Part shown: piece after piece, positions 9,045-18,156 of the stretch
How the letters are laid out: the number at the start of each line of letters is the position of its first letter
How positions within the stretch are numbered: position 1 is the first letter of the stretch
Source: an uncultured Pseudomonadales bacterium
Lineage (GTDB): Bacteria > Pseudomonadota > Gammaproteobacteria > Pseudomonadales > Pseudohongiellaceae
Length of the DNA: 64,000 nucleotides
Direction: 5' to 3'
NCBI GenBank assembly: GCA_943789485.1
Contig: CALSUH010000030.1
Location: 1 to 64,000 of the forward strand
The notes under the pieces: generated by a model
The model's input: the letters and a program-made list of their open reading frames with translations, nothing else
Told to the model about the DNA's origin: nothing
Database searches by the model: none
Position numbers and translations under genes: made by a program

Positions 9045-9632
9045 CCATCCATCAGCCAGCGGATTGCCAGCTTACTGGAAAGAAGAGGCCTATTGGAGCG
9101 TGATGAAGACAATAGCTACCTGACCCTGGATAGTCTGGATGAAGATCCCATGCAGGGGCTCCATTCTCACTCGCTTCCACGGGGTCTCTGCGCCAAACAG
9201 TAATCAGCGGATTCACGTCACACCGGCAAAGCGTGGCAAAGGCCGAAAAGGTCTGGCACCACGATCTTGGGACGAGAAGACTCCGTCAGAGCAGCATGCG
9301 GCTATGACCTGAATGCAAAGATTGAAACGAGTGTTCAATATCGATATCTGCGAGAAGTGTAAAGGCCCGATCTCCACCAGACAGGGCTGCACCACAGATT
9401 AGTTGTTTGACCGGCCTTAATTTTCTTCTTTTGCTACTTGCTGCCTGGCAAGGTGGTAGGGTAATCATACCCTTTTTAACCAACCCCAAAAGTAGATGTC
9501 ATGCTGCTGTCAGCATTCGTTTCGGTAACAAGCCACCATTAGCCTTGTTAGTCCGTTCGTTATTGTAGAAACAAAGCCACTGCGTGGCATAGACTTAGAT
9601 GGAGATAGCTTTTATTCTACTTATACTACTTG
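9045..9632. mobile_element. Left degenerate IS91-family + IS3-family transposase remnant
   Basis: Plus strand: IS91-type fragments (RGLLERDEDNSYLTLD...; KRVFNIDICEKCKGPI). Minus strand: IS3-type C-terminus YATQWLCFYNNERTNKANGGLLPKRML. Homologous to 16676-17175. Confidence 0.75.
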
Positions 9633-9691
9633 GTTATTCCTGTTTGGATGCTCTTACAAAAATTGTGGCCAGGTTATAAACATCTAGCAGA

Positions 9692-10321
9692 ATGCAAAAT
9701 ACGATAATAAACTCAGGAATGTTTATGCAAGTAATTACGATTTCCGGTGCAAGCGGATCAGGAAAGACTACATTAGCGGAATTTATCCATCAATCCACTC
9801 CGGGTAGTCTGCTTTTGAGTTTAGATCGCTATTATTTAAGCAAGAAAGAGCAAGTTGACAAAAACGGCTTTTGCAATTTTGACGACCCATCGGCCATAGA
9901 TACTTTTTTATTAAAAGAACATCTCTCAGAATTGAGAACAACTGGCCGGACAAATGTTCCGGTATACGACTTCACCATAAGTGAAAGAACCGGTCACGAG
10001 GAGGTGGCCACCAGCGGTTTAATCATAATAGAAGGATTGTTCGCAGGATCTATTTTACCAATAGAAAGTAATGTAAAAATTTTTGTCGAATCTGACCTGG
10101 ATTTAGCTCTTTTAAGACGCATAAAAAGAGACATGAACGAACGGGGCAGAACATTAGAAAGCGTTACAGAACAATATATTAAATCTGTCAGACCTGCATA
10201 TTTCAAGCATGTCGAAAATATCAAATCTAATGCTCATCACATTTTGATCAATAACGGATCAACGGATCAACTCATCGAAGATGGCAAATTCATCATCGAA
10301 GAATTAAAGTTGAATAAATAA
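9692..10321 (+). CDS. Uridine kinase-family P-loop kinase
   Basis: Walker A SGASGSGKTT, LSLDRYY, VYDFTISERTG, IIIEGLFA; real start may be 9719 or 9725. Confidence 0.82.
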   Translation: MQNTIINSGMFMQVITISGASGSGKTTLAEFIHQSTPGSLLLSLDRYYLSKKEQVDKNGFCNFDDPSAIDTFLLKEHLSELRTTGRTNVPVYDFTISERTGHEEVATSGLIIIEGLFAGSILPIESNVKIFVESDLDLALLRRIKRDMNERGRTLESVTEQYIKSVRPAYFKHVENIKSNAHHILINNGSTDQLIEDGKFIIEELKLNK

Positions 10322-10327
10322 AACTCC

Positions 10328-11323
10328 CTAGTTGGACACCGTAAATTTATCCACCAGATATTGTCCCGCCCGAACAGGTGGATAAAGTGGTGACGTGCCT
10401 TCTTCAACACATGTTGGTATAGCTTCTATATTTGCATCATAATTCGGGTTCATGAAATAAGCCATCGACTGCCTCTTTGCAGTAGGATTGCCCGGCACAC
10501 CCACTGGATCAACAACACGGTGTAATGTTGATACCCAACGATCATTAGACCATCGCGCCATAAGGTCACCAATATTGATTATGAATGCGTCTTCGATTAT
10601 TGGCGCAGATATCCAATTACCCGAAGGTGATTTTACTTCAAGTCCACCAACATCCGGGTCAGCATTTAATATCGTTACTGTTCCATAATCAGAGTGGGCT
10701 CCTGCACGCAATTGACCCGGTAATAAATCACCTGACAATGAAGGATAATTTTGTGATCTCAACGCGCTAATATGGTGGGTATGATATTTAACAAAAAAAT
10801 TATCCTCAAGTCCAAGAGCCGCGGCAAGCAATTGCATTATTTGTGCCCCCAAAAGCTCCATGGCTAAATAGTAATCAGTCCAATATACGCGAAAATTTAG
10901 AGGCGACTGCGGCCAGATATTTGGGCCGTAAAAGAAATGAAAATTTTTATCTTCGTGATGACCTGCAGGCGGCATAAGTGAACCAATACTGAATAATTCC
11001 TTGCGGTCAGGCGGCGCTTCAATGCCGAGTGTTTTACCGAGAGCTTCGCCTTCTATCGGTGTATATCCGCGAGGACAAGCGGGATCATCAGAATAAGCGG
11101 TATTTTTTTCGGCAGACGTCTGTTCGAAAAATTTCTTTGCGGACAGCCACGCGCGATCACAGATATTTTTCGGCACATCATGATTTTTTATAATCAGAAA
11201 CCCAATTGAACGAAAAATTTCATCGACTCGTTGAGCCAATTTCAGGCGTTCATCGGAGGTTCCGCTTAAAAATGCACCAAGATCAACAACCGGTATATTT
11301 TGATCGTCCAATTTTACAGGCAT
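10328..11323 (-). CDS. 2-oxoglutarate/Fe(II)-dependent oxygenase, isopenicillin N synthase-like
   Basis: IPVVDLGAF N-terminus, AHSDYGTVTIL (HxD), STLHRVV (distal His), RQSMAYFMNPN (RxS); start trimmed from 11368 to the ATG at 11323. Confidence 0.9.
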   Translation of the reverse strand: MPVKLDDQNIPVVDLGAFLSGTSDERLKLAQRVDEIFRSIGFLIIKNHDVPKNICDRAWLSAKKFFEQTSAEKNTAYSDDPACPRGYTPIEGEALGKTLGIEAPPDRKELFSIGSLMPPAGHHEDKNFHFFYGPNIWPQSPLNFRVYWTDYYLAMELLGAQIMQLLAAALGLEDNFFVKYHTHHISALRSQNYPSLSGDLLPGQLRAGAHSDYGTVTILNADPDVGGLEVKSPSGNWISAPIIEDAFIINIGDLMARWSNDRWVSTLHRVVDPVGVPGNPTAKRQSMAYFMNPNYDANIEAIPTCVEEGTSPLYPPVRAGQYLVDKFTVSN

Positions 11324-11327
11324 ATTA

Positions 11328-12275
11328 TCAACCCTGATTCGACGCCAATGCAAGATTGCTATATTCAACGGCTATCATAGCGGCGACTTTAGCATTGTTC
11401 AGTACGAGCTTTATATTGGTTTCCAGACTTTCACCATCCGTTTGCTCGGCTATTCGTGCTAATAAAAATGGTGTGGTCTCTTTTCCTGTTATGCCACGAC
11501 TGTCCATTTCTGTTAGTGCTTCATCGATCGTATTTTCAATGTCTTGCGGATCAAGCGCATACTCCTGCGGAACCGGGTTGGTTATTAAAACGGATCCGTC
11601 AATGCCAAGCTCATATTTTGATAGTAGAGCCTTTGCCACTTCTTGCGGTGTATCAATTCTATAATCAACAGGAAATCCACTACTACGGGCATAAAAAGCA
11701 GGCACCGTATCGGTCTGGTAACCAACAACAGGAACTCCCGCCGTTTCCAAATATTCGAGCGAACGACCAATATCTAATATGGATTTCATTCCCGCGCATA
11801 CAACAGCAACATTTGTTCGAGAAAGTTCATCCAGGTCTGCCGATACATCCATTGACAGTGCGCCGCCGCGATGAACTCCACCGACACCCCCTGTTGCAAA
11901 TATTCTAATACCCGCCATTGCGGCTATGATCATTGTCGCTGCGACTGTTGTCGCGCCGTCTTTATCGCCTGAAACTATGAATGGAATATCGCGTCTGCTT
12001 GTTTTGGTAACGTTCAAGCCACTTTTGCCCAAATATTCAAGCTCTGCCCCACTAAGACCTACTTTTAGACGACCTTTAAGAATAGCAATTGTGGCGGGTA
12101 CTGCGCCATTGTTCCTTACCACTGCTTCAACTTCACGGGCGGTTTGTACATTCTTTGGATAAGGCATGCCGTGGGATATAATTGTCGATTCAAGTGCAAC
12201 CACGGGCTGACCATTTTCTATTGCTTGTGAAATTTCCGGCAAAACGTCAAGATACTCAGCGTTTAATTCATTCAC
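11328..12275 (-). CDS. psuG: Pseudouridine-5'-phosphate glycosidase
   Basis: ALESTIISHGMPYP, TGGVGGVHRG, VPVVGYQTDTVPAFY and C-terminal NNAKVAAMIAVEYSNL are PsuG hallmarks. Confidence 0.93.
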   Translation of the reverse strand: MNELNAEYLDVLPEISQAIENGQPVVALESTIISHGMPYPKNVQTAREVEAVVRNNGAVPATIAILKGRLKVGLSGAELEYLGKSGLNVTKTSRRDIPFIVSGDKDGATTVAATMIIAAMAGIRIFATGGVGGVHRGGALSMDVSADLDELSRTNVAVVCAGMKSILDIGRSLEYLETAGVPVVGYQTDTVPAFYARSSGFPVDYRIDTPQEVAKALLSKYELGIDGSVLITNPVPQEYALDPQDIENTIDEALTEMDSRGITGKETTPFLLARIAEQTDGESLETNIKLVLNNAKVAAMIAVEYSNLALASNQG

Positions 12276-13224
12276 CGTATTCGTTGCTCCTTATCTCATT
12301 AACTGTCGATACTGACATATCTGGATTGATAGTTGCGCTGTGCGACAACGCAACATTAGCGGCAGAAATAGCAAATTCAGCTGTTGCTTTGATTTCCTGT
12401 TCATCAAACCAAGCAAATGCAACCGCCGCTACAAATGCGTCCCCCGCGCCGCTTGCGTTTATCACCGGACTTTTCAATCTACTCTCTACTATTCCATGAT
12501 CATATGCATCACTATAGAAAACACCTTGCGGGCCTAGAGTGATAAAAATACGTTTTACTCCACTGTCATGAAACCACTGCGCCATTTCAAGATATGTTCC
12601 GCAGGCAGATGGTTTAATGCCGCACAACACCTCTGCTTCTAATAAGTTTGCTTTTAAAGTATGAACGTACCCAAGATGTGGTTTGATGCGAACCGCTTTT
12701 GTGATGGAAACGGCGTCAACAATAAGAGGATTCGCTGCACCACTTTTTACGAGATAAGCCAGCGCGCTTTCACTTAGATTTGTATCAGCAATTACAATTG
12801 CCGCTTGTTTTATTATTTTCAGACGCTGTTGAAGAAATTCTGCGTCTAACTTATCAACAATCTCCATATCATTTATCGCCACAAGCAAATCACCTGTACC
12901 GTCAAGAACGCTTAAATAAGTGGATGTCTTTTGACCTTCAAGACGCACCATATCACTCACGTCGATGCCAGCAGCATTTGCCTGGGTTAGCAAAATTTCG
13001 CCAAATTGATCTGCTCCGACTGCTGAGAGCAATTTGGTACGCACGCCAAGGCGCACCAGGTTCTCTGCGATATTACGGGCTACGCCGCCGGGGCTCGTGA
13101 TCAGATTGCCGATGTTAGAATCGTGCATATTTAGTGCGTTGGCAGGACGACCACAGACGTCGATATTTGCGCCGCCGATGACCACGATGTAAGGTTCATT
13201 ACTATCAAGAGAAGCATTGTTCAT
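12268..13224 (-). CDS. psuK: PfkB-family sugar kinase, probable pseudouridine kinase
   Basis: VIGGANIDVCG N-terminus and NASGAGDAFVAA PfkB motif; overlaps psuG by 8 nt. Confidence 0.85.
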   Translation of the reverse strand: MNNASLDSNEPYIVVIGGANIDVCGRPANALNMHDSNIGNLITSPGGVARNIAENLVRLGVRTKLLSAVGADQFGEILLTQANAAGIDVSDMVRLEGQKTSTYLSVLDGTGDLLVAINDMEIVDKLDAEFLQQRLKIIKQAAIVIADTNLSESALAYLVKSGAANPLIVDAVSITKAVRIKPHLGYVHTLKANLLEAEVLCGIKPSACGTYLEMAQWFHDSGVKRIFITLGPQGVFYSDAYDHGIVESRLKSPVINASGAGDAFVAAVAFAWFDEQEIKATAEFAISAANVALSHSATINPDMSVSTVNEIRSNEYGE

Positions 13225-13230
13225 GGTAAT

Positions 13231-14550
13231 TTACAGAGTATTTTGTTCATTAGTAATGCTATTTTGATGTTTTGCTCTGAAATGAATATAGATAATAACA
13301 AAAATAATATAAGCAACGATCATCAACCTTCCAGTGTTATCGATATCCGAAAAGGCCAAATTGGCTTGAACAAGTAGTATAAGAATGCCAATCACACTTA
13401 TTGTCTTAACAGTCTTTTCAGACATTTTAATTTGTGCATTTGCGAAAATTTCAGGCAGCTTTTTGGCAAAATAAAACGCAGCAAGCAATGGAACAATATC
13501 ATAAATAAATACAAGCCCACTTCCGAGCATGATGATATAGGGCATGTCCTTGCCCGCGATGATTGGAATTGATCCTACAACCAGCAGAATGGTCAATAAT
13601 ATATGGGGAGTATTAAATCTTTTGTTGACGGCAGCTAAACCCTTAGGTAACCAACCATCTTCACAGGCAATGATCACGGACTTTGTCGCCCACGAAAATG
13701 TAGAATTTATACTGGTGGCAAAAGCGAATAAAGCGGCACCAACGATAAATGCAGTATATAGTGAGGGCGGTAAAATCACTCTCGCGACTTCAGCCAACGT
13801 CTTCCCAGCTGTTTGCTCAATAGGTAAAACTCCTACCGCTACAATGGAAACCGTCGCGATAAAAAAAGCTGCAAGAAGTGTGCTGTAGATAATCGCACGA
13901 GGAAGATCATGGTGTGGATTTTTCATTTCGCCGCCGAGTTCAGAGACATAATAGGCACCCCCCGTGGCAAAAGACATAAGAACACATGCCATCCCAAAAC
14001 CGTACCAACCGTCCGGGAACAATTTTTCCTGATCGGTAAAATTACTGTAATCTACTTCTAAAATTCCAAAGAAAATCAGTGAGGATAACCCGAAAAGAAG
14101 CAAGGCAATCATAACTTTTTGAATTGCTGCTGCCTGATGAATGCCGAGAAGATTAACTGTATAAAAAGTAACCAAAATACCGAGCGCGACATATTTTGCA
14201 TTTAACTGTGGAAGAAGTGCTATGGCATATTCAGCGAACCCCAACGCAAACAAAGCAATAAGTATGTGAGTGACAAGTAAAAGCGAGAGAAAAAAGAAAC
14301 CAACCTTTGGACCCAAAACACGCTTGCAATAGACATAAAGTCCGCCCGTTGCCGGCATCGCAGAGCCCATAAACACAACCGGTAATTGTTTGATGATGGA
14401 AAATATTGCTGAAAGAATGATGGCGAATGGAACCGCATACGCAGTGAATCCGATACCAATACCGATAAGCACCAAAACTCCCGAACCAATGACCTGCCCT
14501 AATGCAATTGCAAATACGTCCCAGAAGCTAAGTGTCTTATTTAATTTCAT
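13231..14550 (-). CDS. APC-superfamily amino acid permease
   Basis: Multi-TM protein, GQVIGSGVLVLIG N-terminal motif, GGAYYVSELGGEMKNPHHDLPRAI loop. Confidence 0.88.
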   Translation of the reverse strand: MKLNKTLSFWDVFAIALGQVIGSGVLVLIGIGIGFTAYAVPFAIILSAIFSIIKQLPVVFMGSAMPATGGLYVYCKRVLGPKVGFFFLSLLLVTHILIALFALGFAEYAIALLPQLNAKYVALGILVTFYTVNLLGIHQAAAIQKVMIALLLFGLSSLIFFGILEVDYSNFTDQEKLFPDGWYGFGMACVLMSFATGGAYYVSELGGEMKNPHHDLPRAIIYSTLLAAFFIATVSIVAVGVLPIEQTAGKTLAEVARVILPPSLYTAFIVGAALFAFATSINSTFSWATKSVIIACEDGWLPKGLAAVNKRFNTPHILLTILLVVGSIPIIAGKDMPYIIMLGSGLVFIYDIVPLLAAFYFAKKLPEIFANAQIKMSEKTVKTISVIGILILLVQANLAFSDIDNTGRLMIVAYIIFVIIYIHFRAKHQNSITNEQNTL

Positions 14551-14575
14551 TAATCAATACCCATGTTGGTCACGT

Positions 14576-15778
14576 TTAATTCAATTTAGATAATGCAGCA
14601 TCAAAATCTTCGATTAAATCATCTGCATCTTCAAGACCAGTTGACACCCTGATCATACCGTCCCTGATACCCATTTCTTCACGTTCCGACTTAGGAATAT
14701 CAAGAAAGGCCATAAGTGCCGGAATTTGCGTTGTTGAACGTACACCGCCAAGGCTTGCTGAAAAACAAGTTAATTCTAAGTTATCTAATACTTTTAATGC
14801 TGCGTCGCCGTCTTCCACTTCAAAAGTGAGCATGGCGCCAAATTTTGGCATTTGCTCTTTTGCTACTTCGTGCTGCGGGTGTGAAGCGAGACCGGGATAC
14901 CAAACCTGTTTAATGATGGGGTGTGCTTCAAAATGTGCGGCGAGTTTCGCAGCCGATTGGCATTGACGCTCTACACGAACACTTAATGTTTGTATGCCGC
15001 GGATCAACATCCAAGCATTGAAAGGTGCTATCGGCGCTCCTAATTTGACCATAGTGTTCCAGCGGATTTGTTCAAGAAAATCACTAGGCAGCAAATTTGA
15101 TTTCATGCAAATAGAACCGCCAATCACATCACTATGACCACCAATGAATTTAGTCGCGCTTTCCACCACAATATCAACGCCCCATTCAAGCGGACGCATG
15201 ACATAAGGACTGGCGAAGGTATTGTCACACACCACAACAATATCGCGTGCATGTGCAAGTTCAACTAACGGCGCAACAGGTGCGACCTTCATGGAAGGGT
15301 TTGCGATGGTTTCAAAATAAATAATCTTGGTGTTTGGACGAATTGCCGCGCGCACTGCTTCAATATTGGATGTATCAACAAATGTTGTTTCAATATTATA
15401 ATCCGTGAGGCGATGGTCCAGCATTTCATGAGTTGAACTGTAGGTGGTCCAGTCACAGACAATATGATCACCACTTTTTAATAGTCCCAGTAATGTGATC
15501 GAAATAGCAGCCATACCGGATGCGGTAGCAAGGCAGGCGTCGGCACCTTCTATCATCATCATTTGTTCTTCAAACTGATATTCTGTCGGATTTCCGCAAC
15601 GGCCGTAAATATTTACATCCTTACGTTCACCTTCAACAATCCGCTGAAAAATTTCTGCGTCATACTGGAAGCTGGATGACATTACAATATTCGGAGTTAT
15701 TGATTTAGTAGCCTCGTCAGGAGGGCAATAAACCGCTTTACTGTCGAAACGAAGGTTTGACCTTTTGTCTTTTTTCAT
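14576..15778 (-). CDS. Cys/Met-metabolism PLP-dependent enzyme (methionine gamma-lyase / cystathionine gamma-lyase-like)
   Basis: Fold-type I PLP motif ESATKFIGGHSDVIGG, YGRCGNPTEYQFEEQMMMIEGAD, FSASLGGVRSTTQIPA. Confidence 0.9.
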   Translation of the reverse strand: MKKDKRSNLRFDSKAVYCPPDEATKSITPNIVMSSSFQYDAEIFQRIVEGERKDVNIYGRCGNPTEYQFEEQMMMIEGADACLATASGMAAISITLLGLLKSGDHIVCDWTTYSSTHEMLDHRLTDYNIETTFVDTSNIEAVRAAIRPNTKIIYFETIANPSMKVAPVAPLVELAHARDIVVVCDNTFASPYVMRPLEWGVDIVVESATKFIGGHSDVIGGSICMKSNLLPSDFLEQIRWNTMVKLGAPIAPFNAWMLIRGIQTLSVRVERQCQSAAKLAAHFEAHPIIKQVWYPGLASHPQHEVAKEQMPKFGAMLTFEVEDGDAALKVLDNLELTCFSASLGGVRSTTQIPALMAFLDIPKSEREEMGIRDGMIRVSTGLEDADDLIEDFDAALSKLN

Positions 15779-15968
15779 AGTGTTCCTGTTTCAAAATTTT
15801 TTAATTTGGCCCAGAATGTTAGAAAATCACCAAAGATACCAAACCATAGCGATACTGGGTAAAATAAGTAAGACGCAGTTTTACCAATTGGCTATGTAAA
15901 GATCAATTCAATTCATCATAGTGTGTAGGATCATGTGTAAGCTGATAGCGCTGAATAATATAAAGATG

Positions 15969-16007
15969 CAAAAAACTTAAACGCCCGCTAGCAACAGTTG
16001 GCAGGCG
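15969..16007 (-). terminator. Intrinsic terminator between FAH remnant and gamma-lyase operon
   Basis: Minus strand: cgcctgccaactgttgctagcgggcg hairpin then tttaagtttttt. Confidence 0.6.
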
Positions 16008-16042
16008 CTTAATATTAAGGTGAAACCTTTTATCGGATAGTG

Positions 16043-16640
16043 TTAATTTGACGGAGTATCAGATTTAACAACCTTTTGGTTGAGACGACCGAAAATAGTA
16101 TTTCCTGCTTTATCGAATATATTAATTTCCACACGGTCACCAAAATTCATGAAAGGTGTTGATGGTTTCCCGTGCTTAATCGTTTCTAAACATCTAACTT
16201 CAGCCAGACAACAGGACCCATCCAATCACCCTTTGTTGGTAACGGTACCAGCGCCAACCACTGTCCCCGCCATCAAGGGCCTTGCTGTAGCGGCATGAAA
16301 AATGAGTTCGCAAAAATCGAAAGTGATGTCAATGCCAGCATCCGGAGAACCAACCTTTACGCCGTTTTATATTGCCAGCAGCGGTAGGGAAAGTTTTTTT
16401 TCCCGTCCCATGCATCACCAAGTTCGTCGTTTTTTTATAAAAACGGGTGCGAACAAGGTCCATGGCTTTGATTGGTAACAAACAAATTGTTTAGCCAGTT
16501 CAGCAGGGATAAGATTACGAAGTGGCACGTCATTTAATAGGGAAAGAAGCTTGATGTTTTTTAGCGCCGTCAGCTGAGATCCCGGGGGGAACATCACCAG
16601 TGATAACCGCAACCTCCGCTTCGAAATCAATACCCCAGTC
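16043..16640 (-). pseudogene. Frameshifted, 5'-truncated fumarylacetoacetate hydrolase-family gene
   Basis: Minus-strand frames encode ALKNIKLLSLLNDVPLRNLIPAELAKQF.CYQSKPWTLFAPV and GSCCLAEVRCLETIKHGKPSTPFMNFGDRVEINIFDKAGNTIFGRLNQKV in different frames; the 5' part is missing and IS91 sequence follows. Confidence 0.75.
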
Positions 16641-16675
16641 TTCTGATCCTGCCATTACATCGTCGTGCGGGCCGC

Positions 16676-17175
16676 TTATCCTGAATATCCACTTTCACAT
16701 GTTGTTTCTTGATGGAGTGTATCTCCACCACGAATCAGGAAATTTCGCTTATCACTACAACAAAGCCCCTACAGAAGAGCAACTCACTGATTTACTGCAC
16801 ACCATCAATCAGCGGATTGCCAGGTTTCTGAAAAGAAGAGGCCTACTGGAGCGTGATGAAGACAATAGCTACCTCACCCTGAATGGACTGGATGAAAATC
16901 CCATGCAGGAGCTCCATTCTCACTCGGTGACATACCGGATAGCCATGGGCCCCCAGCAATGGCGCAAAGTGCTCACTCTGCAATCCATCCCGCCCCAGCC
17001 AGACTTACGCTAATCATCCTCTTTTTAACCAACCCCCAAGGTAGATGCCATGCTACTGTGAGCATTCGTTTCGGTGGCAAGCCACCATTAGCCTTGTTAG
17101 GCCGTTCGTTATCGTAGAATCAAAGCCACTGTGTGGCATAGACTTAGATGGAAATAGCTTTTATTCTACTTGTAC
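16676..17175. mobile_element. Right degenerate IS91-family + IS3-family transposase remnant
   Basis: LNIHFHMLFLDGVYLHHE...HTINQRIARFLKRRGLLERDEDNSYLTLNGLDENPMQELHSHSVTYRIAMGPQQWRKVLTLQSIP is IS91-type; followed by an IS3-type C-terminal fragment on the minus strand carrying an in-frame stop. Confidence 0.8.
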
Positions 17176-18156
17176 TCTATGGAGACTGAGAGCGAGCCGA
17201 TGAGGACTTCTCTCCAACATGGGCTGTCCCGAAAACAACTGATCAAACTGGACTTTTCTATGTTTGCCCGAAATACTTTTTCTATGCCTTTACGCTTTAT
17301 GCGCAATTCACCCCTTGCACTGATACTGCTAATTCTGAATGCGTGCAGTGGTATGGTCGATGTTCCCTCGGCCAACTTCAATAGCCGAATTGACTATCTA
17401 GTGATTCACGCAACTTCGGAAAACTTTGAACAATCGCTCAGGCTTCTTACCCAACCTTCTGAGAACTCAGTAAGCTCTCACTACCTAATTCCGACACACG
17501 ATGACGCAAGTTACCCCCGTAACCGGCTTCAAATTTACCGCCTTGTACCGGAACACGAACGAGCCTGGCATGCGGGGCTGAGTTATTGGGGAGAAGAAAC
17601 TGGGTTGAATGACCGCTCTATTGGCATCGAAATCGTCAACGAATTTAAGTGCGAAGGCACTACAAATCCGATAGAAGAAACGAATCCTGAAGACATTAAC
17701 TGCGATTTCCGAGGCTATGATGAGGAACAGATAGCAAGGGTTGTTGCATTGACAACCGATATTCTTTCCCGTTATCCGACTATCAACCCCATTGATGTCG
17801 TTGGCCATTCAGACATAGCGATTCTGCGAAGATCAGACCCCGGTCCAAATTTCCCCTGGAAAGTCTTGTACGAGGCAGGCGTGGGCGCTTGGTATGATGA
17901 TGAAACTAAGCAACAATACCAACAAAATTTCGCCCAAAAAATGCCCGCCATCGCCAGTATTCAGGAAGCGCTCAATCAACTAGGTTATCTGGTAGAGGTG
18001 TCCGGTCGATTTGATCGACAAACGCGCTATGCTCTTCGCGCCATGCAGCTGCATTACCGATCAGAGGACTATTCAGGTAATGTCGACGTTGAATCTGCCG
18101 CGATTATCTGGGCCTTGCTGGAGAAATATCGGCCACAGAAAATGGTTGTACTTTAG
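17170..18156 (+). CDS. N-acetylmuramoyl-L-alanine amidase (Amidase_2, AmiD-like) with peptidoglycan-binding domain, lipoprotein
   Basis: IDYLVIHATSENF, GIEIVNEF, VVGHSDIA; lipobox LILNACSG; the true start is probably 17284 or 17299 because the ORF start touches the IS remnant. Confidence 0.85.
   Translation: MYSMETESEPMRTSLQHGLSRKQLIKLDFSMFARNTFSMPLRFMRNSPLALILLILNACSGMVDVPSANFNSRIDYLVIHATSENFEQSLRLLTQPSENSVSSHYLIPTHDDASYPRNRLQIYRLVPEHERAWHAGLSYWGEETGLNDRSIGIEIVNEFKCEGTTNPIEETNPEDINCDFRGYDEEQIARVVALTTDILSRYPTINPIDVVGHSDIAILRRSDPGPNFPWKVLYEAGVGAWYDDETKQQYQQNFAQKMPAIASIQEALNQLGYLVEVSGRFDRQTRYALRAMQLHYRSEDYSGNVDVESAAIIWALLEKYRPQKMVVL

Follow-up and report, generated by a model that had tools for sequence, protein, structure and literature searches.

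In the window, i.e. the 64,000-nucleotide stretch of contig CALSUH010000030.1 (assembly GCA_943789485.1) of an uncultured Pseudomonadales bacterium that was analysed here, an operon on the minus strand (10328-15778) combines genes for a putative pyridoxal phosphate (PLP)-dependent gamma-lyase and an amino acid permease with genes for a pseudouridine kinase (PsuK), a pseudouridine-5'-phosphate glycosidase (PsuG) and an Fe(II)/2-oxoglutarate (2OG) oxygenase. It is rather likely that this operon represents a mobile cassette by which RNA nucleosides bearing a 3-amino-3-carboxypropyl (acp) side chain are catabolised. It would be a form of nucleoside catabolism built around an enzyme function that is probably new. 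One nucleoside of this kind, m1acp3-pseudouridine, is a hypermodified constituent of eukaryotic 18S rRNA.

All five open reading frames (ORFs) are intact, and the operon claimed in the original prediction was borne out with regard to coordinates and junctions. The gene of the lyase (14576-15778; PF01053, 425 bits) is followed by those of the APC-superfamily permease (13231-14550; PF13520, 135 bits), the PfkB family kinase PsuK (12268-13224; nearest solved chain E. coli PsuK, 269 bits), PsuG (11328-12275; PF04227, 442 bits; E. coli PsuG, 394 bits) and the oxygenase (10328-11323), all on the minus strand. The junctions amount to 25, 6, -8 and 4 nt in this order, provided that the ATG at 11323, and not an upstream TTG, is taken as the start of the oxygenase. 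The predicted gene families were likewise recovered, as Pfam and solved-structure searches agree for all five proteins. Promoter and terminator scans gave signals no better than chance. Beside the operon, a convergent gene for a uridine-kinase-like nucleoside kinase (9692-10321, plus strand; PF00485, 111 bits) had been overlooked, as had decayed repeats which flank the whole block.

According to the proposed scheme, the permease would import the nucleoside by means of its alpha-amino acid moiety, and the PLP enzyme would gamma-eliminate the acp group, yielding 2-oxobutyrate, ammonia and a nucleoside with a free N3. Products of the pseudouridine type would be converted via PsuK and then PsuG to ribose-5-phosphate and the uracil base, and products of the uridine type would be accepted by the convergent kinase; hence, the window is proposed to hold both routes. 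The oxygenase, which resembles thymine-7-hydroxylase (T7H), might oxidatively strip another substituent, for which the N1-methyl group of m1acp3-pseudouridine is the likeliest candidate, at the level of either the nucleoside or the base. With this substrate PsuG would leave 1-methyluracil or require a prior demethylation, and this would therefore be a task for the oxygenase. Removal of the N1-methyl group is the weakest step of the scheme; a function of the oxygenase as N1-demethylase is plausible but unproven. The identity of the substrate, its import, the removal of the acp group, the oxygenase step and the order of the steps are points that we only infer. The joint reading, namely the first pathway for a complete breakdown of m1acp3-pseudouridine, comprising a new class of PLP enzymes that cleave an N-linked acp group and an N1-demethylation, on an island that moved between Alpha- and Gammaproteobacteria, is offered tentatively.

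Together with its relatives, the lyase forms a monophyletic clade (support 97/96; seven outgroup rows in the tree), which is distinct from methionine gamma-lyase and present in at least five phyla. With methionine gamma-lyase (TIGR01328, met_gam_lyase) it shares the fold, the PLP lysine (Lys210), the catalytic residues Tyr113, Asp185 and Arg377 and probably the chemistry of gamma-elimination, but its score of 395.7 bits lies below the cut-off of 549.7 of this model, it stands among nucleoside genes and its substrate-side residues are replaced. The cysteine of methionine gamma-lyase (Cys116 type) is a serine in the window protein and serine or threonine in the clade members shown, and the glutamate of the SLGGxE motif, present in four of six outgroup rows, is an arginine in the clade. 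Altogether, 23 positions of the lyase are clade-specific, e.g. Asn56, Glu66, Tyr67, Trp240 and Lys245. Conservation at positions 50-67 is partly circular, because these overlap the peptide patterns used for locus finding; positions 112-126, 206, 240-245 and 357-359 are unaffected.

With alignment A1, a scan that covered genomes from 84,980 species yielded 66 lyase loci. The full set consisting of lyase, APC permease, PsuK, PsuG, oxygenase and the convergent uridine-kinase-like gene occurs in another gammaproteobacterium (L039) and in an alphaproteobacterium (L040). The same five genes as in the window, in another order or divergent, were found in L044, L051, L054 and L057, and L097 carries genes for PsuG, oxygenase and a PfkB kinase near the lyase gene. 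The gene set thus co-occurs in other genomes, where psuG is accompanied by both the PLP lyase and the oxygenase; its absence from all other genomes, named in the original prediction as a refutation, does not hold. In three loci (L050, L052 and L055) the contig ends within the neighbourhood. In nearly all loci of the half of the clade to which the window lyase belongs, the permease gene lies directly downstream of the lyase gene; in six of them (L041, L042 and L045-L048) this pair is joined only by the convergent uridine-kinase-like gene, which stands beside lyase and permease in 8 of the 66 loci.

Elsewhere in the clade the lyase is combined with other nucleoside enzymes. A nucleoside hydrolase, an oxygenase and an amino acid ATP-binding cassette (ABC) importer accompany it in L068, L071, L079 and L081 (also L033 and L038), where the hydrolase is of the pyrimidine type (nearest models UriH/RihA). 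Since this version falls at two places within the lyase tree, partners have been exchanged. Amino-acid-type importers occur with the lyase in two versions. In Chloroflexota (L065, L066), the lyase is found with a LacI regulator, a Bmp-type ABC importer and nucleoside hydrolases, and in a spirochaete (L067) with a nucleoside hydrolase. Furthermore, Micromonospora (L069, L074, L104) and Leptolinea (L096) possess a sugar-type ABC transporter, lyase, PsuG, PfkB kinase, a TrpF-like protein and an RpiR regulator.

The psuG gene lies within approximately 9 kb of the lyase clade in 14 of the 66 loci (≤ 0.3 expected). These loci are not independent of one another, but at least four separate lineages contribute to this link. 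Any nucleoside gene was found near 27 of the 66 lyase loci versus 2 of 25 control loci centred on the oxygenase (Fisher p = 0.002), and both positive controls are operons of PfkB kinase, nucleoside hydrolase and thymidine kinase with an oxygenase of the same family. In gammaproteobacteria psuG is uncommon (11 of 274 genomes), and neither lyase nor oxygenase was found near any of nine other gammaproteobacterial psuG loci. Because of the excess of psuG beside the lyase and the recurrence of the full set in other genomes, the arrangement is not due to chance.

All nucleoside-linked versions share only the lyase, predicted to eliminate a gamma-substituent, beside enzymes that open pyrimidine nucleosides or pseudouridine; an importer of the amino acid type is often present as well. 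This suggests a common logic, in which a nucleoside bearing an amino acid is imported, its side chain is removed and the nucleoside is opened. The predicted amino-acid-bearing nucleoside is hence sustained by the ties of the lyase clade to nucleoside breakdown and by the amino-acid-type importers, but not the restriction to m1acp3-pseudouridine. A C-nucleoside is not an expected substrate of the versions with only the kinase or with a nucleoside hydrolase, and the lyase is therefore better regarded as a putative general acp-pyrimidine-nucleoside lyase. For the window version m1acp3-pseudouridine is one likely substrate, and acp3U, acp3-pseudouridine or another conjugate are also candidates. 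As pyrimidine nucleosides with an acp group, a review lists acp3U (in tRNA, including that of bacteria), acp3D, acp3-pseudouridine and m1acp3-pseudouridine (PMC7694415); enzymes which introduce acp3U have been described (PMC6895100, PMC7026641).

Kinase and glycosidase of the operon are of the PsuK and PsuG types, and the pseudouridine step is deduced from homology with E. coli. In PsuG, the catalytic lysine is aligned and kept in the solved-structure search. PsuK retains the GAGD motif and its gene overlaps psuG; its score versus PRK09850 (290 bits) is below the NCBIfam equivalog cut-off of 540. In E. coli, psuK and psuG of the same families are adjacent as well, but the window adds the gamma-lyase, the APC permease, the T7H-like oxygenase and the uridine-kinase-like gene. 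The nearest solved chains of the product of the latter are uridine kinases. At the position corresponding to residue 93 of TtUCK (His or Tyr), which we take to be important for base recognition in uridine kinase, a serine is present in all eight of these proteins. A uracil phosphoribosyltransferase (PF14681) was not found in the window genome, which is only 84% complete.

The oxygenase is most similar to the fungal T7H of Neurospora (NcT7H, PDB 5c3p-5c3s) by sequence and by predicted structure. NcT7H is the nearest solved chain (162 bits, 34% identity; next family 122 bits), and with an AlphaFold model (pLDDT 92.8) the top 11 PDB matches were all T7H entries. The ligands of iron and 2OG are kept (H210, D212, H268, R284 and S286; motifs HxD..H and RxS). 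In older literature, T7H is also reported to N-demethylate 1-methylpyrimidines. In T7H, uracil is contacted by Asn87, Glu122, Arg190, Tyr217, Phe292 and Asn294 (PMC4787775). The window protein retains Arg190, Tyr217, Phe292 and Asn294, but differs from NcT7H by the loss of the other two contacts (Asn87 to Pro, Glu122 to Ser) as well as by its setting in a bacterial operon. In the oxygenase tree, the PsuG-linked proteins form one clade (100/99) and the hydrolase-linked proteins another (100/100), with L097 apart; the separate clades indicate separate recruitment, and oxygenases were recruited at least twice, probably three times.

The oxygenase was also considered as a guide gene for the pathway and was rejected, since its relatives in 274 gammaproteobacteria and in a wider phylum sample had neither psuG as a neighbour nor a lyase of the clade; alone it is no pathway marker. 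A scan of viral contigs with the oxygenase gave no match. Matches on plasmids showed 35-37% identity, and the neighbours were unrelated in the one case examined. Two of the gammaproteobacterial relatives (L028:8712-12098 and L030:8363-11794) are T7H-like oxygenases in operons with a PfkB kinase, a nucleoside hydrolase and a thymidine kinase and with no lyase; these operons possibly represent another pyrimidine nucleoside route.

Several observations weigh against the catabolism of acp-nucleosides. Of the 66 lyase loci, 39 have no recognised nucleoside gene; approximately 25 of these are Rhizobiales loci with the cluster of sugar ABC transporter, PfkB kinase and TrpF-like gene as in Micromonospora, without PsuG, and approximately 12 contain the lyase, mostly with the APC permease, and no nucleoside gene. 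The substrate of the lyase is judged from neighbouring genes only, we know of no activity for any member of the clade, and gamma-elimination of an N-linked imide makes chemical sense for an enzyme of this fold but is, to our knowledge, undocumented. The uridine-kinase-like protein (153 bits) does not reach the NCBIfam cut-offs of 180 and 220 for uridine kinase. Beside the two lost uracil contacts of the oxygenase, its kept T7H residues were rejected as proof of a pyrimidine substrate; homologues without a link to the pathway keep them too, and the four contacts are therefore suggestive only. Lastly, an amidohydrolase resembling methylthioadenosine/S-adenosylhomocysteine (MTA/SAH) deaminase in the Chloroflexota version would fit a thioether nucleoside as well, although it is present at two loci only.

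This amidohydrolase leads to another explanation, which we consider unlikely: the lyase might act on a different conjugate of nucleoside and amino acid, such as an SAH-like thioether or a C-nucleoside antibiotic, that is recycled or detoxified, and acp-bearing RNA nucleosides would not be the main substrate. Thioether gamma-elimination is the usual chemistry of the lyase family, and the substrate-side residues, although different from those of methionine gamma-lyase, name no substrate. PsuK and PsuG, the pyrimidine-type nucleoside hydrolase and the uridine-kinase-like partner, however, point to pyrimidine or pseudouridine products and not to adenosine, and the deaminase-like gene is limited to Chloroflexota. 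Still less probable is a patchwork, in which an ordinary pair of lyase and permease for methionine, a homoserine derivative or canavanine is co-transcribed by chance with genes of pseudouridine salvage. The relatives with lyase and no nucleoside gene would agree with this, as would the fact that methionine gamma-lyase is the best NCBIfam model, though far under its cut-off. It is opposed by the recurrence of nucleoside genes of several unrelated families with the lyase clade in separate lineages and by the replacement of both the specific cysteine and the SLGGxE glutamate. The canavanine-related B3/4 editing protein, or another canavanine marker gene, was not seen among the partners examined; no search with a model of the B3/4 protein was made.

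Very improbable is a biosynthetic cluster, in which a C-glycosynthase of the PsuG family, the oxygenase and the PLP enzyme would make a C-nucleoside product and the APC protein would export it. Relatives in PF04227 do include the solved AlnA, and PLP and 2OG enzymes are common in clusters for nucleoside antibiotics; but with 394 bits for E. coli PsuG and 200 bits for AlnA, the glycosidase is by far more similar to the former, PsuK is a kinase of salvage, the set gives way to importers and nucleoside hydrolases at other loci, and no obvious tailoring or self-resistance genes adjoin the operon.

The six-gene block, including the convergent kinase gene, is a mobile island. It is bracketed by decayed transposase-type repeats in direct orientation and with approximately 90% identity (9049-9627 on the left and 16802-17176 on the right), and an ORF overlapping the right repeat weakly matches a Y2-type transposase (Pfam, Y2_Tnp). 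Positions 9365-16020 are 95.8% identical to L039, which belongs to another gammaproteobacterial metagenome-assembled genome (MAG), in comparison to only 74% for the photolyase next to the island. Positions 9707-16674 share 83.5% identity with L040, an Emcibacteraceae contig of the Alphaproteobacteria. Upstream of the island in L040, a fumarylacetoacetate-hydrolase-like gene (PF01557) is intact, whereas its counterpart in the window (16046-16673, minus strand) is a decayed remnant with stops and frame breaks (tblastn, 76-83% identity). Judged from this comparison, the broken copy is the footprint of the transfer. The simplest reading is that the island came from an Emcibacterales-like donor, a direction that we infer; mis-binning of one MAG contig is still conceivable as the reason for the shared island.

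With regard to known systems, the operon would work like the fructoselysine (frl) operon, in which an amino acid conjugate is imported by an APC permease and then processed by a PfkB kinase and a cleaving enzyme; substrate class and enzymes differ. As a PLP gamma-lyase recruited for an unusual amino acid in rhizobia, canavanine-gamma-lyase is comparable to the window lyase, and the clade is set apart from it by gene context only, i.e. by the nucleoside genes. The enzyme occurs in Pseudomonas and Rhizobium, as cited in PMC10018355. No description of the breakdown of acp-nucleosides or of the removal of the acp group was found in the literature searched, with subscription journals mostly outside this search.

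Any turnover of RNA sets modified nucleosides free, the fate of which in bacteria has been described as unknown (PMC11708014). If the proposed catabolism is correct, one enzyme family would explain how environmental bacteria can draw on acp3U and m1acp3-pseudouridine as sources of carbon and nitrogen, a catalyst for the removal of acp marks would be available to biochemists, and the fate of hypermodified nucleosides would become a question for a handful of simple assays. Additionally, the proposed oxygenase step would bear on the breakdown of N1-methylpseudouridine, the nucleoside of mRNA medicines.

Relatives of the lyase are also encoded on plasmids (tblastn, 57-59% identity) of Pseudosulfitobacter and rhizobia. 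The gene in Pseudosulfitobacter adjoins those of a nucleoside hydrolase, a 2OG-Fe(II) oxygenase and an amino acid ABC transporter; the rhizobial one adjoins genes for a sugar ABC transporter, a PfkB kinase and a TrpF-like protein. The TrpF-like gene (phosphoribosylanthranilate isomerase family) constantly accompanies the lyase in Rhizobiales, Micromonospora and Leptolinea, as does an RpiR regulator, whether PsuG is present or not (L069, L072-L074, L096, L104; e.g. L073:5162-12227). The rhizobial version was also detected on a contig labelled Nostoc (L088, NZ_JAIVFX010000080.1), the lyase of which hardly differs from its counterpart in Shinella (L085), and this cluster is probably an assembly contamination.

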